Positions 18,108 through 41,372 of a stretch of DNA of 41,372 nucleotides are shown here, one piece after another. The position numbers were made by a program, and so were the translations under genes. The DNA lies in NCBI GenBank assembly GCA_002713215.1, contig PAVO01000054.1, positions 1-41,372 on the forward strand. The letters are read 5' to 3'. Below the pieces are notes generated by a model. It did not search any database. It worked only from the letters and a program-made list of their open reading frames with translations, and was not told the origin of the DNA. Within the stretch, counting starts at the first letter, position 1; each line of letters opens with the position of its first letter. This DNA is from Crocinitomicaceae bacterium (GTDB lineage Bacteria; Bacteroidota; Bacteroidia; Flavobacteriales_G; Salibacteraceae).

Positions 18108-19238
18108 ATGAATACATCTTTTGACGTAGTTGTAATAGGAGGAGGATTAGCAGGAATGGTCTCTGCAGGGCTACTTGCCAAAATGGGTTTTTCTGTGAAT
18201 TTACTTGAAAAAGGAACTTACCCCAGGCATAAAGTATGTGGTGAGTTCGTTTCCTTTGAATCCGAATTTGCGTTGGATAAGATGGGAGTAGTTTTACGCG
18301 ATCTGTCCCCAATAAAGATTGAACAATTTACGCTTTCTACCACTACTGGATCTAAAGCCCGGTTAAATCTTCCCCAGCCTGGTATTGGGTTAAGCAGGTA
18401 CAAACTTGAAAATGTACTGTACGAGCAATTGCTTAAGTTGGGGGTAACAGTTAATTGCAAAACCAAGGTTACGGAAGTGAGCCAACTTGATGGTGATGCC
18501 GGGCACATCGTTCATGCCCAACATGGAAATACAATTACGTCTAAACTGGTGATCGGTGCTTTTGGTAAACGATCGGGCTTACAGGTAATTTCATTGAATC
18601 GGTCGGGATATTTTGCCGCTAAAAACCATTACCGCTTTCCTTTTAACCCCAATGAAGTACAGCTCCACATGTTCCCTGGTGGGTATGGGGGTATGTCAAT
18701 GGTAGAAAGCAATTTAGTGAACTTCTGCTACCTTGGAAAAACCGTCGACCTTAAAAAATCGGGTTCCATTGAAGCTTACCAGAAAATGGTTGTTGGGAAA
18801 AACCCCTACTTAAAGGAACTACTGGATAAGGGCGAACCCATGTTGAAAAAAACGCTTACCATTAGTCAAATCGATTTCGGACATCGCAACAGGGTTTCTA
18901 ACGGAGTGTTTCATGCAGGTGATGCAGGGGGAGTAATCCACCCATTGAGCGGAAACGGAATGAGTATGGCTATAAATAGCGCGCTTTTGTTATCGGAGGT
19001 CTCAGAACGTTTTTTAAGCGGGAGAATTACCCGAAAACAAATGGAAAATCAGTACAGTAAATCCTGGGAAAAGAGTTTTGGACTGAGAATGATATCCAGC
19101 CGGTTTTATCAATCCCTGTTTGAGCATTCCTGGGGAAGAAAGATTGCCGTTGGAGCTTTAAAAAACAAAACCCTGGGTAGGAAGTTGATTCGATTAACTC
19201 ATGGAAAACCGCAAGAATATGTCAGCAATGCAGTTTGA
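18108..19238 (+). CDS. FAD-dependent oxidoreductase of the polyketide locus
   Basis: This encodes 376 residues. The N-terminal dinucleotide fold VVVIGGGLAGMVSAGLLAKMG (GxGxxG at 11-16) is followed by YPRHKVCGEF, the P-x-x-K-x-C-G signature of the geranylgeranyl-reductase/FAD-monooxygenase superfamily. The second FAD motif is HAGDAGGVIHPLSGNGM (about 269-285), and FPGGYGGMSMVESNLVNFCYL matches the substrate region of oxidoreductases found next to type III PKS genes. By analogy with the SrsC flavoprotein of S. griseus phenolic-lipid synthesis it may hydroxylate or oxidise the aromatic product. A reductase role cannot be excluded. It is the first gene of the coupled operon. A weak -7-like TAGATTTA lies at 18089-18096. 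Its 3' end overlaps the next gene. Confidence 0.88.
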   Translation: MNTSFDVVVIGGGLAGMVSAGLLAKMGFSVNLLEKGTYPRHKVCGEFVSFESEFALDKMGVVLRDLSPIKIEQFTLSTTTGSKARLNLPQPGIGLSRYKLENVLYEQLLKLGVTVNCKTKVTEVSQLDGDAGHIVHAQHGNTITSKLVIGAFGKRSGLQVISLNRSGYFAAKNHYRFPFNPNEVQLHMFPGGYGGMSMVESNLVNFCYLGKTVDLKKSGSIEAYQKMVVGKNPYLKELLDKGEPMLKKTLTISQIDFGHRNRVSNGVFHAGDAGGVIHPLSGNGMSMAINSALLLSEVSERFLSGRITRKQMENQYSKSWEKSFGLRMISSRFYQSLFEHSWGRKIAVGALKNKTLGRKLIRLTHGKPQEYVSNAV

Positions 19239-19920
19239 CATTACAGACATAGAGTGGCTGGATTCAAACCAGGCCAAAGGAGAGCAGTACAGAAAGGTAA
19301 TCTCTCAATTGGATGTGATCAACAAATACCTTGGAAATGAATCTCAAATGAAGAAGTCTATCGATGATTTTTTGGATAATAATTCCATTGAAAAGGGGAG
19401 AACGATTCGCGTAACGGATTTAGGTTGTGGGTCGGGTTACATTTTAAAAAAGGTTGGCGATTTGCTGATAAATAGAGGATATATTCCGGTATTAATTGGA
19501 GTTGACGTCAATCCTGAAGCTATAGATTTAGCAAGAGGTAAACTGTCGCAATACGACAATCATATGATTTGTACTGCTATTGATGAGAATTTTGAAATAC
19601 CAACAACTGATTTTTTAATTTCCAGCCATTTTATATATCACCTCAACGGTTCTCAACTTAAAAATTTCCTGTTACTGAATAAGAATAAAATAGCGTTCGC
19701 GCTGTTCTTTAGCGAACTCTATCAAAGTAAGTTATCCATTGGGTTGTTTCAACTGTTTTCCCGCATTTTGAATTTCGAAAATGAGGTAAGACAAGACGGG
19801 GTTAAGGCACTTAAGCGAGCTCCAAAATTGGAACAATTCAAACAGCTATTTTCAAGCTTCCATTCTATTGAAGTGAGAAAAGTTCCGTTTTTTAGAACTA
19901 TAATTTCGGGTCAATTATGA
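19201..19920 (+). CDS. Class I methyltransferase 1 of the polyketide locus
   Basis: This encodes 239 residues from the first ATG, which overlaps the oxidoreductase gene by 38 bases. ATGs at 19219 and 19228 are also plausible and give a better fit to its neighbour's N-terminus. VTDLGCGSGYILKKV is motif I, IGVDVNPEAIDLARGKL the SAM-ribose strand, and VRQDGVKALKRAP a C-terminal motif shared with the next gene. It is clearly a paralogue of the following methyltransferase (INKYLGN against INQLLGG, DLGCGSG in both) but has lost the downstream NDLHRH motif (here SELYQSK). It is likely to methylate the polyketide product, or to act together with its paralogue. The exact atom is unknown. Confidence 0.85.
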   Translation: MENRKNMSAMQFDITDIEWLDSNQAKGEQYRKVISQLDVINKYLGNESQMKKSIDDFLDNNSIEKGRTIRVTDLGCGSGYILKKVGDLLINRGYIPVLIGVDVNPEAIDLARGKLSQYDNHMICTAIDENFEIPTTDFLISSHFIYHLNGSQLKNFLLLNKNKIAFALFFSELYQSKLSIGLFQLFSRILNFENEVRQDGVKALKRAPKLEQFKQLFSSFHSIEVRKVPFFRTIISGQL

Positions 19921-20612
19921 ATTGGGCCATTCGTTCCAACGAAATAGAATTAATGGATGACCTGGAAATAGGTGGAGATAAGCTTATATCTACATTAAAA
20001 GAAATTGACAGAATCAACCAATTGCTTGGTGGGTTTAACTCACTTATAAAAAGAGTGGAACACTACCAATCTACTACTAATTCTGAAGTGGCAATATCTG
20101 ACTTGGGTTGTGGTAGTGGTTGGTTGTTAAAACAGCTAGAATCAAGACTTGGAAAGGATTCCAGATTGATTGGGATTGATGCAAATGCATCGGTGGTCAA
20201 TTATGCCCGGTCAGGATATGAAGGAAGTATTAGCTTTAAGCAAATCGATGTCTTTGATTACATTCAATCGCTTGATAGCAGTAAATTGAATATTGTATTA
20301 TCCAGTTTGTTTTGCCATCACTTCTCAAACTCCGAATTAACCCGAATGATAGAATTGCTTCGAACAAAAAATGCCGTGTTTATAATCAATGACTTACACC
20401 GACATTGGTTAGCGCTTAACCTGTTTAAACTGCTGGGTTATGCCTTTAATTTGGGAGCTATGGCACGTACCGATGGTGCCATATCCATAAGAAGGGGGTT
20501 TAAACGAATCGATTGGGAGCAGATTCTTTCCAATGTCGATTCCCGATTGTACAAAATAGAGTGGAAGTGGGCCTTTCGCTATCAAATTGAAATTGCCAAC
20601 TCATGGACGTAA
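19917..20612 (+). CDS. Class I methyltransferase 2 of the polyketide locus
   Basis: This encodes 231 residues. Its ATG overlaps the previous stop in ATGA. Motif I is ISDLGCGSGWLLKQL and the acidic ribose-binding residue lies in IGIDANASVVNYARSG. FCHHFSNSEL is the post-motif region, and NDLHRHWLALNLFKLLGYAF plus ARTDGAISIRRGF is the C-terminal pattern I associate with methyltransferases encoded beside bacterial type III polyketide synthases. It probably O- or C-methylates the resorcinol or pyrone made by the next gene's product, as SrsB and BpsB do in the Streptomyces and Bacillus systems. It overlaps the PKS gene by ten bases. Confidence 0.9.
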   Translation: MNWAIRSNEIELMDDLEIGGDKLISTLKEIDRINQLLGGFNSLIKRVEHYQSTTNSEVAISDLGCGSGWLLKQLESRLGKDSRLIGIDANASVVNYARSGYEGSISFKQIDVFDYIQSLDSSKLNIVLSSLFCHHFSNSELTRMIELLRTKNAVFIINDLHRHWLALNLFKLLGYAFNLGAMARTDGAISIRRGFKRIDWEQILSNVDSRLYKIEWKWAFRYQIEIANSWT

Positions 20613-21655
20613 AAATTCTATCAGCGGCTAAAGCGTTACCCGAATTTACTCGCCCCACGGCAGATGCCTTACCTTACCTGGATACCTGGCTGACTGATCG
20701 GCCCAAACGCTTTGTGGATAAGGTAAAACGAATTTTTAAGTATTCTCAGGTGGAGCATCGGTACAGCATAATGCCCATAGAGGAAGTTTTTACAAATACT
20801 TCGTTTGAAGAAAAAAACGAAAGGTTTCGTAAGGCAGCTATTGAATTGGGCAAACAGGCTTTGCTAAATGCTACGCAAAAGGCAGGTATTGATTTACAGG
20901 AGATCGATTACCTGATAACCACTTGCTGTACGGGGTTTATGATTCCAAGTGTTGATGCTTATTTGATCAACGAGTTGAACCTTCGCCAGGATGTTGTTCG
21001 ATTGCCAGTGACTGAAATGGGATGTGCCGCTGGAGTATCTGCGCTGATCTATGGGTACGATTTGTTGAAATCCAATCCGGGTAAAAAGGCGGCTATTGTT
21101 GCTATAGAATCGCCGACCAGTACGTTTCAGCACAACGATTTTAGTATGGCCAATATGGTGTCTGCAGCAATATTTGGCGATGGAGCTTCTTGTACCATAT
21201 TAGGTAGTTCCGATCAGGTTTTGCCAAGCATAGTAGATACTTCCATGTATCATTTTTACAACGAGGAACGTATGATGGGCTTTGATTTAACCAACCAGGG
21301 ACTTAAAATGGTTTTGGACGTCGAGGTCCCCAATAAAATAGAAGCTCGATTGTTGGAGATATTACAACCCTTTCTGGAAGAGCACGAGTTGACTTTTGAG
21401 AACATTAACCATTTTGTGTTTCATCCCGGAGGAAAGCGAATCGTACAGTTAGTCGAGGAATTGCTCCAGCCACTGGGTAAGAACATTGACGATACCAAGG
21501 AAATATTAAGAGCGTACGGGAATATGAGTAGTGCTACGATACTGTTTGTACTTGAGCGATTTATGGATAAAAAAATATTGCCCGGAGAAAAGGGATTAAT
21601 GTTGAGCTTTGGTCCTGGATTTTCAGCACAACAAATCCTCCTCGAATGGAAATAA
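20603..21655 (+). CDS. Type III polyketide synthase (chalcone synthase-like)
   Basis: This encodes 350 residues, the normal size for the family. The full Cys-His-Asn triad is present: C141 in EMGCAAGVSALIYG, H274 in FVFHPGGKRI and N307 in YGNMSSATILFVLERF. The TTCCTGFMIPSVDAYL segment and the closing LSFGPGFSAQQILLEW also match. These enzymes load an acyl-CoA or acyl-ACP starter, add malonyl units and cyclise the chain. Bacterial relatives with long-chain starters make alkylresorcinols or alkylpyrones (ArsB/C, SrsA, BpsA). The neighbouring ACP, ketosynthase, dehydratase and enoyl reductase genes suggest a dedicated acyl-ACP starter. It overlaps both neighbours by ten bases. Confidence 0.96.
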   Translation: MDVKILSAAKALPEFTRPTADALPYLDTWLTDRPKRFVDKVKRIFKYSQVEHRYSIMPIEEVFTNTSFEEKNERFRKAAIELGKQALLNATQKAGIDLQEIDYLITTCCTGFMIPSVDAYLINELNLRQDVVRLPVTEMGCAAGVSALIYGYDLLKSNPGKKAAIVAIESPTSTFQHNDFSMANMVSAAIFGDGASCTILGSSDQVLPSIVDTSMYHFYNEERMMGFDLTNQGLKMVLDVEVPNKIEARLLEILQPFLEEHELTFENINHFVFHPGGKRIVQLVEELLQPLGKNIDDTKEILRAYGNMSSATILFVLERFMDKKILPGEKGLMLSFGPGFSAQQILLEWK

Positions 21656-22437
21656 ATTCAAATTTAAAAGGAAAGTGGGCAATCATATTGGGAGCAAGTG
21701 GAGAAGTAGGACGCGCTACAGCCACCAAATTGGCTTTGGCAGGAATTAACTTGTGTCTGGTATACCGGGAACGCAGATCGGCCATAAATGAGCTTGAAAA
21801 GCATCATTCTGAACTCAAGCAGACAGGAGTTAAGTTATTAACCTACAACAGTGATGCACTGAATGAATCCGTTCGGAATTCCATTGTAGAGGAACTAAAG
21901 ACTAATGGCCCGGTTCAGGTTGTTGCGCTGGTTCATGCTATTGCTAAGGGAACCTTAAAGAACTTAACCGGAGAGAACCGGGCATCTTTGGAAGATTACC
22001 AAATTACTCAACATGCTATGGCCTATAGCCTGGTAGATTGGGTCAACGCCGGGTTGGACCATGATTTATTTGTAGAGAATGCCTCAGTAATCGCTATCGA
22101 TAGTGCTGGAAGTCAACGATACATTCCGCAGTATGGAATTGTTGGGGCTACCAAGGCCTCATTAATTAAATTAACTCAGGATCTGGCGATTGAATTGGTC
22201 CCTAAAAGAATCCGTTGCAATGTCATTCGTGCAGGAGTAATGGATAGCAAGGCACTAAATGCAATTCCCGCCAGCGATTTAATCAAAAACCAGGCATTAA
22301 AAAGCAACCCCAATGGACGACTAACGCTGGGAGAAGATGTGGCAAATGCTATTTATTTATTAAGTTTATCCGAGTCAAGCTGGATTACCGGCTCAATTAT
22401 TAATGTAGATGGAGGAGAAGGATATGTCGGATCATAG
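21646..22437 (+). CDS. FabL/FabI-like enoyl-ACP reductase (SDR superfamily)
   Basis: This encodes 263 residues. The NAD(P) site is IILGASGEVGRATATKLA. The catalytic pair is Y163-x6-K170 (QYGIVGATKASL), the spacing of enoyl-ACP reductases FabI/FabL, not the YxxxK of ketoreductases. SAGSQRYIPQY before it, AIELVPKRIRCNVI after it, the GVMDSKALNAIP block and the C-terminal GSIINVDGGEG parallel Bacillus FabL closely. It should reduce an enoyl-ACP in the locus's own chain-building cycle. A generic SDR annotation would miss this. It overlaps the PKS gene by ten bases and the dehydratase by 14. Confidence 0.85.
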   Translation: MEINSNLKGKWAIILGASGEVGRATATKLALAGINLCLVYRERRSAINELEKHHSELKQTGVKLLTYNSDALNESVRNSIVEELKTNGPVQVVALVHAIAKGTLKNLTGENRASLEDYQITQHAMAYSLVDWVNAGLDHDLFVENASVIAIDSAGSQRYIPQYGIVGATKASLIKLTQDLAIELVPKRIRCNVIRAGVMDSKALNAIPASDLIKNQALKSNPNGRLTLGEDVANAIYLLSLSESSWITGSIINVDGGEGYVGS

Positions 22438-22870
22438 AGAAAGAATTTTGGAATTGATGCCCTACGCTGAACCGTTTCGGTTTATTGACGAAATTGAATC
22501 GGTGAACAATGAGGGAATTGTTGGTTATTATACGTTTAAAGAAGACTCGGATTTTTACATGGGGCATTTCCCTGGTTTTCCATTAACACCAGGAGTTTTA
22601 CTTACTGAGTGTATGGCGCAGATTGGCATGGTAGCGCTGGGAATCCATCTTATTGGTGTTGAAAATATTGATGCGCCTATTCGCTTTGCGTTTACCGCGT
22701 CTGATGTTAAATTCTCGAACATGGTTATGCCAGGTGAAAGAGTAAAGGTGGTTGCAACCAAACGACTTTGGAGAATGAATGTACTGCGCTGTGAAGTAGA
22801 ATTGCTCAAGGAAGATGGTACGCAGGCTGCCAAGGGCAAACTTGCAGGATATCGCTTAAAAGATGAGTGA
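22424..22870 (+). CDS. FabZ-like 3-hydroxyacyl-ACP dehydratase (hotdog fold)
   Basis: This encodes 148 residues from the ATG at 22424. An in-frame ATG at 22409 would add five residues. I prefer 22424 because GGAGGAGAAGG, a rare strong Shine-Dalgarno-like stretch, lies just before it. GHFPGFPLTPGVLLTECMAQ is the FabZ active-site motif with H48 and E62 at the canonical 14-residue distance. It dehydrates 3-hydroxyacyl-ACP to the enoyl form used by the preceding reductase. The length and single hotdog domain fit FabZ. The gene overlaps the reductase gene upstream and the ketosynthase gene downstream by eight bases. Confidence 0.92.
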   Translation: MSDHRERILELMPYAEPFRFIDEIESVNNEGIVGYYTFKEDSDFYMGHFPGFPLTPGVLLTECMAQIGMVALGIHLIGVENIDAPIRFAFTASDVKFSNMVMPGERVKVVATKRLWRMNVLRCEVELLKEDGTQAAKGKLAGYRLKDE

Positions 22871-24152
22871 CATCCATAGACAAGGTAGGCGGGTGGTTGT
22901 TACTGGAATGGGAGTGGTGGCGCCCAATGCCGTAGGCCTTTCCAATTTCGAGAAAGCACTTCGGGAAAGCAAATCCGGCATTCGATTTATCCAGGAATTA
23001 AAAAATCTCAATTTCGCTTGTCAGGTTGGGGGAATTCCTCCGCTAACTGAAGGCATCATTGAAAAGTACTTAAGCTCGCTTCAGATGAAACAGATAAAGG
23101 CTACTGGGTTGTTGTATGGACTTATTGCCGGAAAGGAAGCCTGGGAACATGCCGGGTTATCCTTTAAGAGCGACGAAACCCGTTGGGAGTCAGGCTGTGT
23201 TTTTGGTTCCGGGCTAGCAGGCATATCCAGGATTCGTGAAGGTATTTATCAGGTTGATGAGGGAAAAGTAAAGCGCCTGGGCAGTACCATGGTAGAACAA
23301 ACCATGCCCAGCGGAATCAGCGCTTTATTGGCTGGAGAATTGAGTTTAGGTAACCTGGTATCAACCAATGCATCTGCCTGTAGTACGGGAAACGAGGCTA
23401 TTCTTATGGCTTACGAAAGAATTGAATCGGGGCAGGCTGATCGAATGCTTGCCGGTAGTTGCGATGATCATGGTCCCTATGTATGGGGTGGATTTGATTC
23501 CTTACGTGTACTCAACCGAAAAATGAATGACCGACCTGAAGAGGCCAGTCGACCTATGAGCGAGTCCGCTGCCGGTTTTGTACCTGGAAGTGGGGCAGGA
23601 GCGCTTGTTTTGGAAGAGCTGGAGACGGCCAGAGCACGAGGCGCAACCATTTATGCCGAAGTAATGGGAGGTGCTTTAAATGCAGGAGGTCATATCAATG
23701 GTGGAAGTATGACCCTGCCTAATGACGAGGGTGTAATTCGTTGTATTCAATCCGCTATGGTGAATGCTGGGGTCGTTGCTAAAGACGTTGACTTAATCAA
23801 TGGACATTTGACAGCTACCAGGAACGATGCCCGCGAAATAACAAACTGGTCAAAAGCGTTGGATAGAAAAGGTGATGATTTCCCCCTTGTCCAATCCACC
23901 AAATCGTTAATCGGACATTGCCTGAGTGCTGCGGGAAGCATTGAATCCGTTGCGGTGGTTAGTCAACTATACAACGGCTTTACTCATGCTTCTGCGAATT
24001 GTAATGATCTGAATTTAAAAATTTCACAAATAGTTAATAACAAATGTATTACAGTTACCAACTTAAATAATAAGATCAACATTGTAATGAAGTCCGGTTT
24101 TGGTTTTGGCGATGTAAATTCGGTAGTGGTTTGGAAGAAATTTCTTGATTAG
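22863..24152 (+). CDS. Beta-ketoacyl-ACP synthase, FabF-like
   Basis: This encodes 429 residues. It is a thiolase-fold condensing enzyme with an intact Cys-His-His triad: C173 in NASACSTGNEA, H315 in NGHLTATRND (the usual N-A-H-G-T-S-T altered to N-G-H-L-T-A-T) and H352 in KSLIGHCLSAAGS. The opening RRVVVTGMGVVAP and closing GFGFGDVNSVVVW are typical FabF. The altered His loop marks it as a specialised KS rather than housekeeping FabF. It would elongate acyl groups on the locus ACP to supply the type III PKS. It is the last gene of the first transcription unit, followed by a perfect 32-bp palindrome. Confidence 0.93.
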   Translation: MSDIHRQGRRVVVTGMGVVAPNAVGLSNFEKALRESKSGIRFIQELKNLNFACQVGGIPPLTEGIIEKYLSSLQMKQIKATGLLYGLIAGKEAWEHAGLSFKSDETRWESGCVFGSGLAGISRIREGIYQVDEGKVKRLGSTMVEQTMPSGISALLAGELSLGNLVSTNASACSTGNEAILMAYERIESGQADRMLAGSCDDHGPYVWGGFDSLRVLNRKMNDRPEEASRPMSESAAGFVPGSGAGALVLEELETARARGATIYAEVMGGALNAGGHINGGSMTLPNDEGVIRCIQSAMVNAGVVAKDVDLINGHLTATRNDAREITNWSKALDRKGDDFPLVQSTKSLIGHCLSAAGSIESVAVVSQLYNGFTHASANCNDLNLKISQIVNNKCITVTNLNNKINIVMKSGFGFGDVNSVVVWKKFLD

Positions 24153-24157
24153 TTTTT

Positions 24158-24295
24158 GTCATCCTAAGTGTTTTTTCTTCCGATTATAATCGGAAGAAAA
24201 AATGTATCGAAGGATAGACAAAATTTTATAGACCAAGTGTATTCAGTTCGTTGTTCACTCTTCGATGCAATTTCTTCTAAATCACTCAGAATGAC
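24158..24295. repeat. GTCATYCT-type inverted-repeat element with nested palindrome
   Basis: The outer ends GTCATCCTAAGTG (24158-24170) and CACTCAGAATGAC (24283-24295) are inverted with 11 of 13 matches. The end sequence resembles the outer ends of the elements at 7257 and 37640. The element lies between the ketosynthase gene and the convergent DksA-like gene, and no reading frame is seen in it. Confidence 0.55.
24171..24202. terminator. Perfect 32-bp palindrome, probable bidirectional terminator
   Basis: The half-site TTTTTTCTTCCGATTA is followed immediately by its exact reverse complement, so either strand gives a GC-containing stem ending in six T. It lies 18 bases after the ketosynthase stop and could end the biosynthetic operon on the plus strand. 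Confidence 0.55.
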
Positions 24296-24370
24296 AACTA
24301 CAATTATACTGCTTAACGCATTCCCTAGCAGCGTAGCGGAGTCGGGAATCTTTCATGCTGCAAAGGCCGT

Positions 24371-24694
24371 TCACCTCGCACAATGAATACACTTCGTATT
24401 CTCTGGCATAAGCATTAATCTTCCTTCTTGAATATCGTTACCACAACGACTGCATTTTCCAAAATTGGCATCATCAACCTTTTCCAATGCCATATTCAGT
24501 TTCTGAAATTTAAATTCCGCCTGACGCAACGCACGTTCGTTAACTGATTTGTTGTTAATGGCATCCATTCGGCTTACTCGGCCAATGGCTACGTCCGGAG
24601 CAATGGGCTTCGTAAGGTCCTTTAATTCAGCGATTTTTTCCTGCATGGAAACAATCTCCGCCTCAATCTTTTTTTTCAAAAGTTCCTTATCCAT
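24371..24694 (-). CDS. TraR/DksA-type C4 zinc-finger protein
   Basis: This encodes 107 residues. An N-terminal coiled-coil helical region (MDKELLKKKIEAEIVSMQEK...) is followed by a C-terminal four-Cys zinc finger, KCSRCGN...TKCIHCA. This is the DksA/TraR layout, though shorter than E. coli DksA (151 residues). DksA-type proteins insert into the RNA polymerase secondary channel and change promoter response, often with ppGpp. The usual acidic tip is not obvious in this short coiled coil. The gene is antiparallel to, and splits, the two halves of the polyketide locus, and could be a regulator of it or a chance insertion. Confidence 0.85.
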   Translation of the reverse strand: MDKELLKKKIEAEIVSMQEKIAELKDLTKPIAPDVAIGRVSRMDAINNKSVNERALRQAEFKFQKLNMALEKVDDANFGKCSRCGNDIQEGRLMLMPENTKCIHCAR

Positions 24695-24830
24695 ACCTTG
24701 AACTAAACACCCTGGAGTTAAACATTATGCCCAATTGTACATTTTCTAACATTGAAATTGTACTTGGTAGGGCTAAAGTAATGCCTAAAATGTTTTTCTT
24801 GGTCAAGAAATTAAAAAGAACTAAAACAAT

Positions 24831-25085
24831 ATGGATTCAGCGGGTATCGAGGAGAAATTAAAAGACATTATTAAGCCCTATATTGGTGACGAAGAAGCGT
24901 TTAATAACCTTACTCCCAGTACCAACTTATTAAGTGACTTAAAGATTAATTCAGCCCATTTGGTCGATGTAATTCTTGATGCCGAAGAAGCTTTTGACAT
25001 TGAAATTGATGATGACAACGCTGAGAAAATGCTCACCGTGCAAGCTTCAGTGGACATTATAACCCAAAAATTGAAGGAAAAGTAG
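24831..25085 (+). CDS. Acyl carrier protein of the polyketide locus
   Basis: This encodes 84 residues, acidic and helical. The phosphopantetheine serine is S41 in DLKINSAHLVDVILDAEEAF. The canonical D-S-L is replaced by N-S-A, a sign of a specialised ACP. Helix II (LVDVILDAEEAFDIEI) and the following DDDNAEKM segment fit the fold. It should carry the growing acyl chain for the KS, DH and ER, and perhaps hand it to the type III PKS. Its cognate phosphopantetheinyl transferase starts three bases downstream. It is the first gene of the second transcription unit. Confidence 0.9.
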   Translation: MDSAGIEEKLKDIIKPYIGDEEAFNNLTPSTNLLSDLKINSAHLVDVILDAEEAFDIEIDDDNAEKMLTVQASVDIITQKLKEK

Positions 25086-25087
25086 CA

Positions 25088-25648
25088 GTGAGTAGCGGCA
25101 TAGGTTGTGATGTAATCCACCTTCCGGACCATTGGAAGGTTGATACGCTGGCTCCAAGGCGTATTCAAAAGCTATATACTTCACGCGAGTTGACATTAAT
25201 GAATCGGATTGATTCAAGTGAGAAGGTTGCTGAGGCAATTATGTGGTCGGCAAAAGAATCGACCTATAAGGCCTGCCACGAGGGGCCTGCTGCGTTTAAT
25301 CCAAAATCATATTGCATAACAGGCGTTAAGGACGGTGAGCTATTCGTAAAATACCAGGAAAGGCATTATACCGTTTGGTTTCGTTTAGACAAAGAAGTGG
25401 TTTTTACTGAGTTGCGTACCGAAAAATCCAAGGGCTATCACAGTCAATTGGAGTGGGTTGAAGGAAATGAATCTGAATCACTTAGAACTAAAGTTTCATC
25501 CTACTTGTCAGACACTTATGGTGGGAGCTGGAGCATACAAAAAACGGAATACGGAAAGCCAATGCTATTTCAGGACAATCGGTTGTCAACAAAAAAACTT
25601 TCCCTGAGCCATCACCAAGGTTATATTGCATTTGTTTTGTGCAACTAG
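25088..25648 (+). CDS. 4'-phosphopantetheinyl transferase, AcpS-like
   Basis: This encodes 186 residues from a GTG start three bases after the ACP stop. GIGCDVI (metal-binding D8) and WSAKESTYKA (metal-binding E57, catalytic K) are in the order and spacing of AcpS-type transferases. The C-terminus has YGKPMLF and LSLSHHQGYIAFVL, also as in AcpS. At 186 residues it is longer than AcpS (about 125), with an extra roughly 50-60 residue segment between the KE motif and GKP. It would convert the neighbouring apo-ACP to its holo form. Private ACP/PPTase pairs are typical of secondary-metabolite loci. Confidence 0.88.
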   Translation: MSSGIGCDVIHLPDHWKVDTLAPRRIQKLYTSRELTLMNRIDSSEKVAEAIMWSAKESTYKACHEGPAAFNPKSYCITGVKDGELFVKYQERHYTVWFRLDKEVVFTELRTEKSKGYHSQLEWVEGNESESLRTKVSSYLSDTYGGSWSIQKTEYGKPMLFQDNRLSTKKLSLSHHQGYIAFVLCN

Positions 25649-25651
25649 GTC

Positions 25652-27907
25652 GTGATTTACCAAAAGCTTAAATACCCCGTTCTTGCAGGAATAACTGTTA
25701 TTACCCTGGTTATGCTTTGGCAACTGATAAGCCTGGGTTTTAATTACGATTTTGAGGCCTTTTTTCCGCGAAATAACGACGATACCGAATTCTTTAGGGA
25801 GTACAGAACTCAGTTTGAATCGGACAATGATTATGTGCTCATAGGACTTGTAAACGAGCGAGGGGTATTTCAAAAGGACTTTTTGACCAAGGTGGATAGC
25901 TTAACGAAACTGCTGAACACGTTAAATAACGTAGAAATGGTGGTAGGGCCAACCAACGTTAAGGAATTCAGGAGATACAGCATGTATCCCGCATTGGTAG
26001 AAAAACCATACATCAATTTAAACGAAAGCAGTACCTATGCCAGGGACAGTGCTAAAATTTTTAGAACTCAGGAACTGGTTAACACCCTTTTCTCCGACAA
26101 ATCTTCAGCAGTGGCCATCTTGGTAAAGCACAAACAATTACTCGATAACGAAGGTTGCAAGCAGCTCTCCATAGAAGTAAAGGAACTGGTACAGGCTTTT
26201 AAGTTTGACGAGGCGCATTACGCCGGAAGAGGCTTAGGGCAAACCATCTATATCGACCTGGTGCAGAATGAAACGCTCATTTTCCTGAGTTCCGGAATGC
26301 TGTTGGTCTTTCTCTTCCTGTTTATTGCTTATCGTTCGTTTTGGGGCATTTGGATGCCCTTGTCGGTGGTTGGGTTGGTTGTGGCCTGGACGGTTGGAGT
26401 AATGGTACTTACTGGAAAGGAAATAGACCTAATGACCAATATTATTCCTACCATTCTTATGGTTATAGGCATTTCAGCTGTAATTCATTTGCTGACCCAT
26501 TACCTGAGTTTAAGGCGCCTGGGAAGGAATAGAGAAGAGGCCTTGATTGATTCAGTTAAGCAAGTAGGCTTCGCTACCTTCTTAACCACCTTAACTACTA
26601 TGATTGGTTTTTTAACCTTATTGAATTCTTCCGTTCAGCCCATCGTCGATTTAGGTATTTATGCCAGTATTGGTTTGGTATTCTCCTTTATTCTCACCTA
26701 TACATGGTTTCCTTCGGTTCTGCTTATTCATAAACCCATCTATTCGGACCGGGAGGCGAAATACACCGACTTCTGGAATTCAATTCTGGTGACTATTGAC
26801 GGATTTGTTCAGCGTAAATACAAGTTCATTGCAATAATTAGTCTGGCTGTTGCATTGGTAGCCGGATATGGTTCTCTGCTTATTAAAAAAGACAACTACA
26901 TACTGGAAGGGTTAAAATCTGATCATCCGCAGCAGCAAGACTTTCTCTTTTTTGAAAATAACTTCTCCGGTGCCCGTCCCTTTGAAATGAAAATCTGGCT
27001 GACCGATTCCAATGCCTCTTTCTTTGACCGTTCGGTATTGAATCAACTGGACGTATTGCACCACTACCTGGATACGGTTTATGGAGTTGGTGGTCTGGTT
27101 TCGCCCGTATCCATTATAAAAAACTCGAATAAAATCTGGTATGGTGGTAAGGAGGAAAAGTACGTTATACCGGAAAGTGACAAACGATTGGCCAAACTCG
27201 AAAAAGACCTTTACCGCTACAACAAGCAGGTAAATACCAACATCTATCTCAATCGGAATCATAGAGAGGCCAGGGTAGTGGGTAAAATCCCGGATTGGGG
27301 GAGTTTTATAGTCAATAACAGGAATTCGGAACTAGAAGCTTTTTCCGGTTCTAAGCTAGATACTAACCTTATTAAATACCGCCTGACCGGCTCTGCAACG
27401 CTTATGGACATCAATACCAATTATGTGGCTAGCAATGTGATCGAGGGGCTATTTATGGCTATTGGAATCATTGGAATCATTGTAGGCTTGCTGTTCCGTT
27501 CCATTAAAATGGCGCTTATTTCCTTAGTCCCTAATGTATTTCCATTGGTGCTTTGTGGTGGAATTATGGGATTTTTCTCCATTGATTTTAATCTACCTAC
27601 CTCAATCATTTTTATCATAGCCTTTGGCATTGCGGTAGATGATAGCATCCACTTCCTTGCCCGGCTCCGACAGGAATTGAATAACAACAATAACCTATCG
27701 GTCGCATTAAGCCGAACCTTTGCCAGTACCGGAAAGGCCATTATTGTCACTTCACTGATCCTCTCAGGAGGTTTTTTAACCCTTTGTTTATCGGACTTCC
27801 TGGGTACTTTTTACATAGGTTTACTCATTTGTATCACCCTGGTCATCGCGTTGGTTTGTGATCTGTTGTTGCTACCCGCTGTAATTCTATTATTCTACAA
27901 AAAATGA
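25652..27907 (+). CDS. MMPL/RND superfamily transporter of the polyketide locus
   Basis: This encodes 751 residues from a GTG start three bases after the transferase stop. It has the two-lobed RND plan: one membrane helix (about 10-30), a large periplasmic loop to about 205, five helices to about 355, another single helix (about 388-405), a second periplasmic loop and five closing helices. The first lobe has GISAVIHLLTHYLSLRRLGR and the second AFGIAVDDSIHFLARLRQEL, where the Asp pair marks the proton-relay region of MMPL/HAE3 transporters. It most likely moves the lipid-like product across or out of the inner membrane. No adaptor or outer-membrane channel gene is beside it. Confidence 0.9.
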   Translation: MIYQKLKYPVLAGITVITLVMLWQLISLGFNYDFEAFFPRNNDDTEFFREYRTQFESDNDYVLIGLVNERGVFQKDFLTKVDSLTKLLNTLNNVEMVVGPTNVKEFRRYSMYPALVEKPYINLNESSTYARDSAKIFRTQELVNTLFSDKSSAVAILVKHKQLLDNEGCKQLSIEVKELVQAFKFDEAHYAGRGLGQTIYIDLVQNETLIFLSSGMLLVFLFLFIAYRSFWGIWMPLSVVGLVVAWTVGVMVLTGKEIDLMTNIIPTILMVIGISAVIHLLTHYLSLRRLGRNREEALIDSVKQVGFATFLTTLTTMIGFLTLLNSSVQPIVDLGIYASIGLVFSFILTYTWFPSVLLIHKPIYSDREAKYTDFWNSILVTIDGFVQRKYKFIAIISLAVALVAGYGSLLIKKDNYILEGLKSDHPQQQDFLFFENNFSGARPFEMKIWLTDSNASFFDRSVLNQLDVLHHYLDTVYGVGGLVSPVSIIKNSNKIWYGGKEEKYVIPESDKRLAKLEKDLYRYNKQVNTNIYLNRNHREARVVGKIPDWGSFIVNNRNSELEAFSGSKLDTNLIKYRLTGSATLMDINTNYVASNVIEGLFMAIGIIGIIVGLLFRSIKMALISLVPNVFPLVLCGGIMGFFSIDFNLPTSIIFIIAFGIAVDDSIHFLARLRQELNNNNNLSVALSRTFASTGKAIIVTSLILSGGFLTLCLSDFLGTFYIGLLICITLVIALVCDLLLLPAVILLFYKK

Positions 27908-34594: not shown

Positions 34595-34625
34595 CCATAC
34601 TTTTTCCTGGAAATAGGATGGTTAT
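34591..34625. terminator. Inverted repeat between convergent genes, possible terminator
   Basis: ATAACCAT (34591-34598) and ATGGTTAT (34618-34625) flank a 19-base centre containing TTTTT. Each arm includes the stop codon of one of the two convergent genes. Confidence 0.3.
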
Positions 34626-35437
34626 CGTACAACCACAACTGAATCAATAAACAGATCCTTTTTAGGCCAATCCCTGGAATCGGTTTCCACTTCTGTTATT
34701 TTAGATACTACCGAATTCCCTGAAATTATTTCACCAAACACCGTATGTTGTCCATCCAAATGAGCTGCTCCAGGATATTTCATATAATATTCCCGCTGTT
34801 GTTTTGAGTAAACATACTTATGTTCCCTTTCATAAACATCCAGCGTAGGTTTGTTGTATTGTGTTCCTTCCACAAAGTAAAACGCATACGGATCAGATCG
34901 TTTATCCGGGTTTTCGCCGTATCTCCTCGCTGCTGCAATGGCTCCTTTTTTGTGAAATCTATGTTTTTTCATTTCCGCAGGAACCGTGTACCTACCAATA
35001 TTCTGTTTTATGGCTGCATGGTCTTCATCGAATGTGCCACCGGATTGCGCAATAAAATTCATTACTACGCGGGTAAATACACTGCCATTTAGAAATCCTT
35101 TTTTACTCATCATAATAAAGTTTGCCCGATGGAGCGGAGTGTCTTTATAGAGGCGTGCTTTAATCAGGCCCTTGCTCGTATATATCTTTACTATGGTTTC
35201 CGGGTTTTTCTTTCCATACTCAAGCAATCTTTGCTCAACGTTTTCGTCGGTTATTGGATTTTTTGGTCTCTTTTCTTTTGGCTTTGGTTTAGCATATTCA
35301 ATTAGCGATTGCTTGGGTTTAGCCTTTTTCTTAACCGGTTTACCTTCTTCTACATTGTTTTTTACCGGTTCTTCTTCACATCCATTGAGTAGACAAAAAG
35401 CCAGAAAACATACTGCTATCAGAATTGCTGTTCTCAA
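34622..35437 (-). CDS. Cyclophilin-type peptidyl-prolyl isomerase lipoprotein
   Basis: This encodes 271 residues. The lipoprotein signal ends CLLNGC (Cys about 20) and is followed by a Lys/Pro/Glu-rich linker. The cyclophilin domain (about 80-271) has YKDTPLHRANFIMMSKKGFLNGSVFTRVVMNFIAQSGG, with the catalytic Arg in FTRVV and the F.IQ.G motif altered to FIAQSGG, and HTVFGEIISGNSVV near the end. An insert of about 45 residues with many Tyr and Lys separates the core motifs, as in many Bacteroidota periplasmic isomerases. It probably helps fold exported proteins. Its start overlaps the end of the upstream histidine kinase gene by four bases, so the two are co-transcribed. Confidence 0.9.
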   Translation of the reverse strand: MRTAILIAVCFLAFCLLNGCEEEPVKNNVEEGKPVKKKAKPKQSLIEYAKPKPKEKRPKNPITDENVEQRLLEYGKKNPETIVKIYTSKGLIKARLYKDTPLHRANFIMMSKKGFLNGSVFTRVVMNFIAQSGGTFDEDHAAIKQNIGRYTVPAEMKKHRFHKKGAIAAARRYGENPDKRSDPYAFYFVEGTQYNKPTLDVYEREHKYVYSKQQREYYMKYPGAAHLDGQHTVFGEIISGNSVVSKITEVETDSRDWPKKDLFIDSVVVVR

Positions 35438-37503
35438 TTTTTGCTTTGTTTTTCCGGTAGTGAAACCACAAAAGTACTGCCTTCTCCATGGTTAGATTCA
35501 ACGGAGATCTTTCCTGAGTGCAGATCAATAAATTCTTTACAGAGTATCAATCCCAGGCCTGTTCCTTTTTCGTTGTTGGTCCCTGTCTGATTAAAATGCT
35601 TTCCTATTTTAAACAAACTATCCAGCTGTTCGGGTGTCATACCAATTCCGTTATCTTCAACGGTAACTTTTATCCAGTCATTTTCTTTGGTCGAAGTTAT
35701 TTTAATGGTCCCATCTTTTTTCGTGAATTTAATGGCATTCGAAATTAGGTTTCCAAACAAGGAATTAAGCATATAATCATCACATTCAAGCTCTGCGTTT
35801 TCGTTGGCATCAAATGAAACCGAAATTCCCTTGGAAGAAGCCAGGTTTTGCATTAATTGAATATTCGAATTGATAATTGAATTTACATTATGGAATGTTG
35901 GCTTAAATTCAATAAGCCCCTTTTGAATTCTGGCCCATTCCAACAAGTTGGTTAGTAGGTTGTTGGCATTGGCCGATGACTTAACCAACGTTGCCAGGTA
36001 TTCTTCCTGTTCCTTGCCCGTCAAATCATCTTTTTGAGTTTTAAAGATTTTCAGCGCAGTGTATAAACCACTAATGGGGTTAATTAAGTCATGAGCAATT
36101 ATGGAGAAGAACTTGTCTTTTGAATCTACCGCCAATTCGAGTTCGCTATTGAGTCGCTCCAAATCTTGGTTTACTATCTTTTTCTGCTTCAGCTGATAGA
36201 AGAAGTGAGTCCCAGCAATTAGGGACAGTAATAGAATGATGCAGACCGATACCAGTATCACATAATTCTTGGAGCTTTCACTTTCCAGTAATAGTATTTT
36301 GTTCTTGCTGATGGTTCGTTGATGTCTTTCTTCAAGTCTTGCAAAGTCCTTGGATTTCCGAGATGAAAAAATTTCGTTCCTGGTGGTCCAGTAAAGGTCG
36401 AGGTATTCCAGTGACTTTTTATAATCGCCATATTCCCAATATATTTCTTTAAGCAGAAGGTACAGTTTATAATTCGGCTCATCTATTGCAGCATAAGTGG
36501 CTTTGGCTTTTTTAGCATTCTCCAGAGCAAGTTTTAAATGGTGTTTTTTTACATCCTTATTGGGAATCATATCGGCATTATTGCTTTGTCTGACCGAGTC
36601 TCTGCTCAAATCAAGAAATAATTGGCCAAACCCTCTAAGATCAAACGCAACCCCATTAATGTTGCCCAGCTTTTCATCAATTTCAAGCGCTTTTTTGTAA
36701 GATTCGAAAGCCTTTCCATATTCGCCCAGGTTATTGTAGACCAGGCCCAGGTTGCCCAGGTTATTTGACTGAGCAAATTGGTTGTTTAATGCGCTATCGA
36801 TACCTATGGCTTTTAGAAAATATTCTTCGGCTTCTGAATAGTTTGACTGATTTAAATAAACCAACCCAAGATTGCCATACACGTTGGCAATTTGGGATCG
36901 ATCATTTAGATTTTCGAAAACTTTAAGTGCTCTGGAATAGTATTCCATGGCTTTCCCATATTCACTTTGTTGATCGTAAAGGTTGCCCAAATTTCCAAGA
37001 ACAACGGCCTGATCTTTTTGTGATCCTCGTGATTCCTGAATTTCCAACGATTGCAGGAAGTAATCCAGTGCGGAATTGTATTCCTGCTGATATTGATAAA
37101 CAATGCCAATGTTACCCAGCACCTCACCAACTCCTACCTGGTCATTAATTTCTGTAAAAAGTTTTAAGGAAATATCGTATGCATCCAGCGATTTGGAGTA
37201 ATCGTCAATTATTGAATAGTACACTCCCAGGTTCTTGTTGCTTTGTGCAATCCCGGTTTTGTATTTAATAGATTTGGCTAGCGATAATGCTGCAGTACTG
37301 TACTCAAGGCATTTGGAAGGATTTGATCTATAGTATTGAAAGCCAATATGATTAAGAAGATCAACCTTCAACTTATCGTTTTGCTCTAATTCAACTGCTT
37401 TTTCAAGGGAATCTAGGTTGATTTTCTGAGAAAAACATATATGAGTTGAAAGACCAATTAATAGGAAAATAAAAAGGTAGTTTAATTCAAATAGTCGCTT
37501 CAT
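35434..37503 (-). CDS. TPR-containing membrane sensor histidine kinase
   Basis: This encodes 689 residues. A signal peptide (about 1-25) is followed by some seven tetratricopeptide repeats (about 40-300) of the type LGNIGIVYQYQQEYNSALDYFLQSL, then a helical stretch, one membrane helix (about 413-435), a coiled coil, HisKA with H471 in SIIAHDLINPISGL, and HATPase_c with N box NLISNAIKF, G1 DNGIGM and G2 GTGLGLILCKEF. The TPR part is periplasmic, a Bacteroidota-specific sensor design. No response regulator is adjacent. The gene is first in a two-gene unit with the cyclophilin lipoprotein. The N-D-L in place of the usual H-E-L/H-D-L-R-x-P (HDLINP) is common in this subgroup. Confidence 0.93.
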   Translation of the reverse strand: MKRLFELNYLFIFLLIGLSTHICFSQKINLDSLEKAVELEQNDKLKVDLLNHIGFQYYRSNPSKCLEYSTAALSLAKSIKYKTGIAQSNKNLGVYYSIIDDYSKSLDAYDISLKLFTEINDQVGVGEVLGNIGIVYQYQQEYNSALDYFLQSLEIQESRGSQKDQAVVLGNLGNLYDQQSEYGKAMEYYSRALKVFENLNDRSQIANVYGNLGLVYLNQSNYSEAEEYFLKAIGIDSALNNQFAQSNNLGNLGLVYNNLGEYGKAFESYKKALEIDEKLGNINGVAFDLRGFGQLFLDLSRDSVRQSNNADMIPNKDVKKHHLKLALENAKKAKATYAAIDEPNYKLYLLLKEIYWEYGDYKKSLEYLDLYWTTRNEIFSSRKSKDFARLEERHQRTISKNKILLLESESSKNYVILVSVCIILLLSLIAGTHFFYQLKQKKIVNQDLERLNSELELAVDSKDKFFSIIAHDLINPISGLYTALKIFKTQKDDLTGKEQEEYLATLVKSSANANNLLTNLLEWARIQKGLIEFKPTFHNVNSIINSNIQLMQNLASSKGISVSFDANENAELECDDYMLNSLFGNLISNAIKFTKKDGTIKITSTKENDWIKVTVEDNGIGMTPEQLDSLFKIGKHFNQTGTNNEKGTGLGLILCKEFIDLHSGKISVESNHGEGSTFVVSLPEKQSKN

Positions 37504-38803: not shown

Positions 38804-39349
38804 TTACAGTTTTCCATAAAAGGATTGACTGCCATCGTTTTCATCCTCACTCATATGAAAATGATAATACATGGTATACAACTCGTAATGGGAAATTACA
38901 CCATCATTGTTTTGGTCCATATTGTCAAAAGCCGCTTCTGCATCACTCTGTGAGTTTCTAAACGAACGAAAAAATGCAGTATAATCTTCCTTCGACAACA
39001 CACCGTCATCATCAGAGTCGATTATGGGAAAAATGTCATCAAAAAATGGTTTAATAAAACGGTAATAGTTTTTGTCATTGGCCAGTGCCAGGACATAATA
39101 GCTTATAAATTCCTCCTCTGAAACAACGCCGTCTTTATTTTCGTCCGCAATGTGAATGAGGTTGTTCCAATGCAGAGTAAATGCAGTCCTGAAATTAGAG
39201 TCTCGTTCGCCACCAACGGTCCAGCCAAATTGCTCCGCAAAATGGTCACAGATTCCATCAATGTCATCAAGATCCAGAACGCCATTTCCATTAGCGTCAT
39301 AAAACTCGAATACTCGTTTAACTTTTTGTAGTCTAAAATCGCTTAACAT
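38804..39349 (-). CDS. Four-EF-hand calcium-binding protein
   Basis: This encodes 181 residues from the ATG at 39349. An upstream ATG at 39406 would add 19 residues, but that stretch is far more AT-rich than the gene, and related bacterial EF-hand proteins open with MLS(D/E)F. Four calcium loops are visible: YDANGNGVLDLDD, ADENKDGVVSEEE, DSDDDGVLSKED and DQNNDGVISHYE. All keep the 1,3,5,12 acidic pattern, so up to four Ca ions could bind. It resembles calerythrin and calexcitin-type proteins of actinobacteria and eukaryotes. It has no signal peptide and is probably a cytosolic calcium buffer or sensor. Confidence 0.88.
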   Translation of the reverse strand: MLSDFRLQKVKRVFEFYDANGNGVLDLDDIDGICDHFAEQFGWTVGGERDSNFRTAFTLHWNNLIHIADENKDGVVSEEEFISYYVLALANDKNYYRFIKPFFDDIFPIIDSDDDGVLSKEDYTAFFRSFRNSQSDAEAAFDNMDQNNDGVISHYELYTMYYHFHMSEDENDGSQSFYGKL

Positions 39350-39680
39350 GTTTAATAGTTTAATTAATTGAGGTGGCAATTTAATAATTAATTGCATGGT
39401 TTCCAATGAATTCAGGCTGCCAATTGATGATCGGTAACCGCAGTGTATAAGCTCAATTCAGGAATCACCAACTCCGATTCAGGAAAAACCGAAGCCACTT
39501 TAACTCTTTTTTAAAACTTGAAATCAATTGCAATTTGCAGCTCAAAAGTTAAAATATGCCTTTTAACGAAGTCTAGAATTCATTTATATAGATGAATATC
39601 CATTCATCAAGCTGTCTGTTTATTACTAGAAGCTGTGGTCCCTTTTACTGGAAATTTGATTCATACTACAGGTTTCAGGA

Positions 39681-40337
39681 ATGATAAAATTGACAGATGT
39701 ATCCAAATCCTATTTAATCCATGGAAAGGAAGAACTGGCTTTAAGCAAGTTAAACTTGGACATTAATAAGGGTGATCTGATTGATATAACCTGCTGCAAT
39801 TCACTTGAAAAAAGGGCAATTACCAATTTATTGGGTTTGCTGGAAGTTCCTGACTCCGGAAACATAAAGTACTTCGATACAAACATTGAGAGTAAAAGCT
39901 TATCCATTCTGCCAGAATTAAGAAAGAATAAAGTTGGATTTGCTTTTTATAGGTTCAGTCTAATCGATGAGCTTACTGTTTTTGAAAACGTTGCTCTTTC
40001 TCTTATATATCGCAATGGTCTGATTAGAAACAAGAAGGAAAAGGTATTTCGAGCCTTAGAGTTTTGTAGACTCTCAAAACATGCCAAAAAGTTTCCAACG
40101 AAACTTGACGCTTTCAGTCAAAAGAATGTAGTTCTGGCCAGAACGTTGGTTAATAAACCTAAAGTAATTCTAACTGATTTTGTTAAGCCAGGTAGTACCG
40201 ATAGTCAATTCCTGGAACTTTTCTTCCGGCTAAATAAACTGGGAACAACGGTTATTTCCATTTCGGAGTCTCAAGATGGCCTCGATACAATGAAGGTTAC
40301 AAGTATCAATAAACAAGTAAACAATGTAAAATCTTAA
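39681..40337 (+). CDS. Degenerate ABC transporter ATPase homologue (LolD/MacB type)
   Basis: This encodes 218 residues, full length for the family, with no internal stops. The fold is clear: MIKLTDVSKSYLIHGKEELALSKLNLDINKGDL at the start, LRKNKVGFAF then LIDELTVFENVALSL after the Q-loop position, and VVLARTLVNKPKVILTD before Walker B. Every catalytic motif is altered. The Walker A site reads CCNSLEKRAIT with no GxGKS/T, the Q-loop Gln is Tyr (Y90), LSGGQ is LDAFS, the Walker B Glu is Phe (TDFVKPG), and the H-loop His is replaced (ISES). It should not hydrolyse ATP. No permease gene is nearby. The next gene, a T9SS cargo, starts 11 bases downstream. Confidence 0.85.
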   Translation: MIKLTDVSKSYLIHGKEELALSKLNLDINKGDLIDITCCNSLEKRAITNLLGLLEVPDSGNIKYFDTNIESKSLSILPELRKNKVGFAFYRFSLIDELTVFENVALSLIYRNGLIRNKKEKVFRALEFCRLSKHAKKFPTKLDAFSQKNVVLARTLVNKPKVILTDFVKPGSTDSQFLELFFRLNKLGTTVISISESQDGLDTMKVTSINKQVNNVKS

Positions 40338-40348
40338 TCCAAAGTATT

Positions 40349-41179
40349 ATGAAAAGAATTATCTCGTATAGAAATATTGGTATCTGCACTTTTTTTTTAG
40401 CGGCTGCTATATCAGGAGTATCACAAGTAATCGATCAGGATCATTCCGGAACTTCTGAGAAGTTTAGCATTATTGATGATCATCCGGCTGGTCAATCTTT
40501 TATTCCTTTTACAGAAGGGCGGTTATTTAGTGTTGCATTGGATATTTCGGCGAAGGAGTGTTATTTCGATACAACTCTGGATAAAATGTTACTTGAAATA
40601 GGAATTAGAGAAGGGAAGGGGCTTGCAGGTAAATTATTGAGCAGGGATAGTGTTGAAATTAGCCTTCCGTTTTCCAGAAAATTTTTAGAAGTGCCAATTG
40701 AATCAAAACCTAAACTACGGAGAAATAAAACCTATACAATTACAGTCACCAATGTTATAATCAAATATTGTGAGCCCATATCTAAGGTTCCTAATTATTT
40801 AAATTGGTATCACTCCGATACAAATTCATATAGTAAAGGAGAAGGATTCTACTTTACTAGCGCCGGTCATAGCGATTTTTACTTTAAAACTTACTTGCTT
40901 CCGGAAACAACTTCTATATTTGATTCGAAAGAGTCAATTGGTTCTGTCAATGGCCTGGTTTATCCCAATCCGAGTGCAGGTGTTTTTCAACTTACATTAG
41001 ACAAAAACTTGGTATCTAGGCTTACTCTGTTCAATATGTATGGTAGGGAAGTGTTAACTGAACAAGTGTTTTATTCCAATAGCGAACAACTTAATTTAGA
41101 AGGTTATCCAAATGGAATCTACTTTCTGACCATTGAATCCAATGGAGAAAGTAGAACCATTAAGTTGTTGAAGGAATAA
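40349..41179 (+). CDS. Secreted T9SS cargo protein of unknown function
   Basis: This encodes 276 residues. The signal peptide ends near AISGVSQ (about residue 26). A beta-rich domain of about 160 residues follows (AGQSFIPFTEGRLFSVALDIS, then KTYTITVTN), resembling carbohydrate-binding-like or lectin-like jelly rolls but not assignable. The C-terminal type A T9SS domain starts VYPNPSAGVFQL and ends PNGIYFLTIES...KLLKE. It should reach the cell surface. It lies 11 bases after the degenerate ABC ATPase gene and is likely co-transcribed with it. Confidence 0.82.
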   Translation: MKRIISYRNIGICTFFLAAAISGVSQVIDQDHSGTSEKFSIIDDHPAGQSFIPFTEGRLFSVALDISAKECYFDTTLDKMLLEIGIREGKGLAGKLLSRDSVEISLPFSRKFLEVPIESKPKLRRNKTYTITVTNVIIKYCEPISKVPNYLNWYHSDTNSYSKGEGFYFTSAGHSDFYFKTYLLPETTSIFDSKESIGSVNGLVYPNPSAGVFQLTLDKNLVSRLTLFNMYGREVLTEQVFYSNSEQLNLEGYPNGIYFLTIESNGESRTIKLLKE

Positions 41180-41201: not shown

Positions 41202-41372
41202 CTACTTTAGGATGGTAACGTTTCCAAACTCTTCGTGCCTTTTCTTAACGTCCTTCTTGTCACCTGTGGTAACCTTCCAGGTATAGACACCATTGGGAGC
41301 AATTTCATCCGTTCCTGCACTTACTCCATCCCAGTATTGATCATAATCGTAGGTTTCAAACACCAGTTTGCC
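41202..41372 (-). CDS. 3' end of a gliding-motility-type (CHU_C) T9SS cargo gene, partial
   Basis: The last 56 codons and the stop of a minus-strand gene whose 5' part lies beyond the right edge. The translation begins GKLVFETYDYDQYWDGVSAG and contains PNGVYTWKVTT near its middle, ending NVTILK. The F.T.D....WDG......PNGVY.WKV pattern is that of the gliding-motility-associated C-terminal domain (type B T9SS signal), found on large adhesins and surface proteins. The rest of the protein cannot be seen. Confidence 0.85.
   Translation of the reverse strand, partial: GKLVFETYDYDQYWDGVSAGTDEIAPNGVYTWKVTTGDKKDVKKRHEEFGNVTILK

Follow-up and report, generated by a model that had tools for sequence, protein, structure and literature searches.

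The window analysed here, a stretch of 41,372 bases, is a whole contig of a 5.03-Mb draft genome that is 98.9% complete and 4.4% contaminated and whose T9SS cargo genes would place it in the Bacteroidota. Towards its end, on the forward strand, lies an open reading frame (39681-40337) that starts with ATG and runs through 218 codons with no internal stop, as the original prediction had stated. It encodes an orphan pseudo-ATPase of 218 residues with a nucleotide-binding-domain (NBD) fold of the DarD/MacB type of ABC proteins, assigned from the reading frame, Pfam, NCBIfam, an alignment and a structural model. We considered the contig as a possible contaminant, but its 4-mer profile correlates at 0.93-0.98 with those of six other stretches of the genome and gives no sign of contamination, in a comparison where contamination from the same phylum would yield a like profile.

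The next gene on the same strand begins after a gap of 11 bases (40338-40348), which confirms the spacing given earlier. This gene (40349-41179) encodes a T9SS type A cargo protein of 276 residues by Pfam and NCBIfam, an orphan N-terminal part. Between 39350 and 41372 we found no terminator-like site (shuffled sequences give 1.5) and fewer sigma-70 promoter-like sites than in shuffles (4 vs 7.1), and the repeats around the pseudo-ATPase gene are short, imperfect two-copy pairs. Compared in full with 59 relatives, the cargo finds nothing at 1e-12; residues 1-200 alone match an 827-residue frame in a single further genome out of 395, a set that includes the own genome, and no ABC ATPase match was found in two 3.4-kb stretches near that frame. 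Only the gap of 11 bases and the absence of a terminator-like site connect the pseudo-ATPase with the cargo.

Several other features of the window are recorded here as observations in their own right. Divergently upstream of the pseudo-ATPase, on the reverse strand, 38804-39406 encodes a 200-residue protein with several EF-hand matches; at the other side, also on the reverse strand, 41205-41372 encodes the C-terminus of a protein that is truncated where the contig stops; its CHU_C-like type IX secretion signal scores 25.6 bits, just under the cut-off of 27. A tetratricopeptide-repeat histidine kinase gene (35434-37503, reverse strand) overlaps by 4 bases with a cyclophilin-type prolyl isomerase gene (34622-35437). 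A biosynthetic cluster (18108-27907) contains, by Pfam, a chalcone/stilbene-synthase-like type III PKS (20603-21655), a beta-ketoacyl synthase (22863-24152) and an MMPL transporter (25652-27907), with frames between them that by eye are an oxidoreductase, methyltransferase-like and phosphopantetheinyl-transferase-like.

By descent, the protein belongs to the ABC ATPase superfamily. Pfam ABC_tran matches residues 21-166 (E 3.3e-8, 34.7 bits against a cut-off of 25), and sequence matches in the PDB reach E 9.4e-24, with MJ0796, MacB, FtsE and 5xu1, a non-canonical ABC transporter of Streptococcus pneumoniae, among the best. The top NCBIfam model is DarD (NF038007), at 109.7 bits; the curated cut-off of 375 is not reached, and the intact relative L011, at 280.5 bits, likewise falls under it. 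Judged by its motifs (Walker A, Q-loop, LSGGQ, the Walker B Glu and the switch His), the protein would not be a functional ABC ATPase.

To describe this loss quantitatively, we aligned the protein with 33 intact relatives and scored the columns in which their conservation reaches 95% or more, with the list of catalytic positions chosen by hand. Only 4 of the 18 near-invariant catalytic residues are retained: Lys44, Gln147, Asp166 and Asp174. The former Walker A segment (residues 38-46; 39792-39818, forward strand, as for all positions in this paragraph) reads CCNSLEKRA where the relatives have GPSGCGKST, so that Lys44 is its sole near-invariant residue and the P-loop glycines and Ser/Thr are all replaced. 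The Q-loop Gln has become Tyr90 (39948-39950), the signature SGGQQ has become DAFSQ (residues 143-147, 40107-40121; LSGGQQ to LDAFSQ in the wider context), and the switch His has become Glu196 (40266-40268). Walker B (40176-40184) retains Asp166; the position of the catalytic Glu holds Phe or Val depending on gap placement, and the Glu is lost either way. Asp174, in the D-loop, and Gln147, just after the signature, are kept. The claim that all nucleotide-binding motifs are replaced therefore stands in that each motif is hit, but not to the letter, given these four remaining residues. Outside the catalytic positions, 37 of 68 near-invariant residues are present, bearing out the claim that the surrounding structural segments are kept; the C-terminus is shorter than in DarD-like relatives, and divergent. 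The difference between 4/18 and 37/68 is significant at the 95% column threshold (Fisher p 0.018) and at 80% (p 0.012), and weakens to p 0.08 at 50%. The pattern expected of a pseudoenzyme, fold residues conserved and catalytic residues free to change, is present, and it is weaker at looser column thresholds.

We searched for relatives in four overlapping sets: the own genome with 59 relatives (E up to 1e-15), the order (42 genomes including the own, 1e-29), the class (395 including the own, 1e-32) and the phylum (395 including the own, 1e-35), with at most 7 candidates scored per genome in the class and phylum searches; eroded relatives that score below these limits would escape detection. 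None of these searches gave a match of more than 40% identity, and the relatives covered include no genome of the same genus. We read the motifs of all matches from the order (8/8), class (23/23) and phylum (2/2), and of 29 loci from the own genome and its relatives, outside which more than 100 further weaker matches lie. Besides the window protein, all 59 homologues read (36 + 23) have intact motifs, and among the matches read there is no second eroded copy. A scan of genome contigs with an 8-residue pattern returned one locus, distant and intact, and viral contigs gave no match; in plasmids (4,530 records with matches) all matches lie below 60% identity, the 8 listed at 34-38%. The original prediction had looked to close homologues with the same losses, and none was found. 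It had also named homologues with intact motifs only, combined with dN/dS near one, as the mark of a decaying pseudogene; the first half of that mark is what the 59 homologues display.

The best matches form one clade that shares the segment LIDEL[ST]V.EN, by which we picked 33 of the 59 intact homologues by hand. Identity within this clade averages 69%, with 54% for the lowest pair, and the window protein averages 35% to its members. In a tree, the window protein falls outside the 25 rows of other clades, on an extremely long branch (10 changes per column), which makes its placement unsure. Its LIDEL segment, together with its DarD score, places it with a clade that we call DarD-like, a label of our own, since both the protein and intact L011 score under the NF038007 cut-off. 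At 14 clade loci whose flanks were read by eye, each ATPase has an adaptor-like or an FtsX/MacB-like gene beside it, or genes of both kinds; the L011 locus comprises a DarC-like adaptor, a DarD-like ATPase and an ADOP/DarB-like permease.

The pseudo-ATPase has no such company. No permease is recognised among the window frames listed, as had been predicted, and an adaptor and DarB/ADOP-like permease adjoining the ATPase, the hallmark of a DarBCD/MacAB-like exporter, are not recognised in the window. We extended the search to the whole genome with one query each for permease, adaptor and ATPase. Queried with residues 1-454 of the L011 permease, the own genome gives no ADOP-like match at 1e-15, and its weaker matches cover the FtsX part only (best E 7.9e-12); at the same limit this query matches 9 genomes among the 42 in the order. 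In 8 of these 9 we read an intact clade ATPase. The ninth, the relative G005 of the same family, has two adjoining ADOP-like permease matches (C72:1367-2727), each interrupted by an in-frame stop, which may reflect either the decay of an exporter of this type or a fault in the assembly. For the DarC-like adaptor the best own-genome match is weak (E 6.6e-7, 26% identity). With an intact clade ATPase as query, the eroded gene matches at 37% and other own-genome ABC proteins at no more than 49%, under the lowest intra-clade pair, and the top two of them (L003, L002) fall outside the clade in the tree; by this measure the own genome has no intact DarD-clade ATPase. Of a DarBCD-like exporter, this 98.9% complete assembly yielded no trace other than the eroded gene. 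Other FtsX/MacB-type permeases are present, with 9 MacB_PCD matches: three of the places read are single permeases of about 400 residues, and a fourth is an 840-residue permease that best matches YbbP (286 bits, vs 46 for ADOP) and adjoins its own intact YbbA-like ATPase (L005).

Because no close relative was found, we used simulations in place of dN/dS to compare selection with decay. They employ simple mutation models, present-day relatives as starting points and substitutions only; an assumed indel rate of 0.1 per substitution, 80% of them frame-breaking, would sharply lower the odds that the frame survives. When 11 intact relatives drift neutrally to the observed identity, they acquire on average 5.1 stops under equal mutation and 6.9 under AT bias, and stop-free frames occur in 7/660 and 0/660 runs, respectively. 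The gene as a decaying pseudogene, still open by chance, appears improbable. Across ten drift levels and two mutation spectra (1,100 runs each), zero stops combined with at most 4 catalytic residues arose in no more than 1 of 1,100 runs, and never together with at least 37 of the other residues. A functional phase of divergence followed by later decay, modelled as drift of five own-genome paralogues until 4/18 catalytic residues are left, does no better, with 0/2,000 runs stop-free and 0/2,000 keeping at least 37 others. The simulations reject neutral decay, for which 5-7 stops are expected. Decay does have points in its favour: the gene is a singleton on an extremely long branch, its partners were not found in the own genome, and the stops in the G005 permease matches suggest that such systems can decay in the family. 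The codon-position signal also speaks the other way: at 37 it lies below the value of each of the 11 intact relatives (42-159) and equals the drift level (simulated 33 plus or minus 13), pointing against selection. Codon usage is unremarkable and does not discriminate between selection and decay.

The missing stops could also be explained if only the open frame were selected, as a leader whose translation aids the cargo gene 11 bases downstream and whose amino acids are irrelevant; both the close spacing and the missing terminator-like site agree with such a role, and no function of the protein would be needed. Forbidding stops in simulations that match the identity from 14 starting relatives leaves at most 4 catalytic residues in 64/2,800 runs and at least 37 other residues in 255/2,800, the two jointly in 18/2,800; mismatches as conservative as those observed appear in 24/2,800, and all three features in 0/2,800. 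These results disfavour selection on the frame alone, which we regard as even less probable than decay. For comparison, all 25 intact homologues outside the clade retain 15-17 of the 18 catalytic residues and 38-52 of the 68 others, and at non-motif mismatches their BLOSUM62 scores range from -0.09 to 0.38; the window protein, at -0.04, lies inside this range, and drift matched for identity averages -0.40 to -0.29. Outside the motifs, the protein evolves like these homologues. A divergent NBD still able to bind nucleotide or another ligand, acting as a conformational switch with no hydrolysis, is also improbable, to about the same degree as decay. Lys44, Asp166 and Asp174 are retained, and slow or non-hydrolysing degenerate sites are established in ABC exporters, as described in PMC7756269, but the P-loop glycines and Ser/Thr are gone, and so are the Q-loop Gln, the catalytic Glu, the switch His and the signature. 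On balance, the catalytic site has been released while the fold is maintained. The proposal of a selected pseudo-ATPase rather than a decaying gene is upheld by the simulations and opposed by the codon-position signal; a pseudo-ATPase is favoured over decay because the pattern of substitutions, in this one sequence, fits selection for the fold and not for ATP hydrolysis. The strongest proof of selection would be the same losses conserved across species, and our searches found no second genome with an eroded orthologue.

The best-kept part of the protein, residues 81-111 (RKNKVGFAFYRFSLIDELTVFENVALSLIYR; 39921-40013, forward strand), includes the Q-loop position and the clade hallmark LIDEL.V.EN and retains 16 of its 19 near-invariant non-catalytic residues. 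It overlaps those parts of FtsE that, as presented in PMC7468199, shape the cavity into which the coupling helix of FtsX fits. The clustering of kept residues in this segment is not significant (scan p 0.09), nor is their enrichment in the mapped docking groove (11/15 kept vs 26/53 elsewhere, p 0.14). An AlphaFold2 model built with 26 intact relatives reaches pLDDT 87.6 and pTM 0.83, values dominated by those relatives, the single-sequence model being unusable (pLDDT 33.5). Foldseek, run on the model made with intact relatives, gives E 1.7e-16, with MJ0796 (1l2t, 1f3o), FtsE, LolD and MacB as top matches.

Together, these observations suggest that the gene is the ATPase of a lost DarBCD-like (MacAB-type) exporter, catalytically dead and kept by selection as a folded protein, a reading to which we assign a probability of roughly 0.6; that it is a selected pseudo-ATPase of some kind is somewhat more probable still. 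The genome would have lost the permease and adaptor of an ancestral exporter, and the remaining ATPase would have lost catalysis while its fold stayed under selection. In ABC dimers, each ATP site joins the Walker side of one NBD to the signature of the other, according to PMC7756269. Because both halves of the composite site are lost, the protein would be predicted to form no complete ATP site, neither as a homodimer nor when paired with an intact NBD, so that occupying the place of an NBD would be its most likely action. The pseudo-NBD might dock on the coupling helix of a remaining FtsX/MacB-type permease, or on another NBD, and serve there as a non-catalytic brake or scaffold. This is the likeliest specific mechanism and yet a tentative one, well short of even odds, given that the best-kept segment overlaps the docking regions of FtsE and that the enrichment is not significant. 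A little more doubtful is the proposal that the pseudo-NBD has been recruited as a decoy regulator, either of the remaining type VII permeases or of the production or delivery of the T9SS cargo.

It is instructive to compare the protein with known systems. Since motifs are the usual means of recognising ABC ATPases, motif-based annotation easily misses a fold that has outlived them. With the DarD-like subunits of Bacteroidota MacAB-type exporters (NF038007), it shares a near full-length alignment at 32-38% identity and the segment LIDEL.V.EN; unlike them, it has every motif hit and no adjoining adaptor or permease. It resembles the NBDs of FtsE, LolD and MacB, which are of ABC type VII, the type named for MacB in PMC5985334, in modelled fold and in sequence, whereas the 59 intact homologues that we read hold all five motifs. 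The closest parallel to its losses is found in the degenerate sites of ABC exporters, with Pdr5 as the extreme in the account of PMC7756269, where Glu, His, Walker A and signature are lost and the fold is kept. Those sites, in the same account, work beside a second site in the same transporter, whereas the window protein stands alone, has lost both the Walker A and the signature sides, and has no known partner. The literature matches listed for stand-alone ABC pseudo-ATPases concern either degenerate sites that lie inside transporters or unrelated subjects. As a singleton, the protein is a candidate ABC pseudoenzyme. Degenerate ATP sites are already known inside transporters, beside a second site; if our reading is true, this bacterial NBD, which stands alone, lacks both halves of the site, has no cognate transporter among those found and bears signs of selection, would differ from them as a clean ABC pseudoenzyme with a new job.
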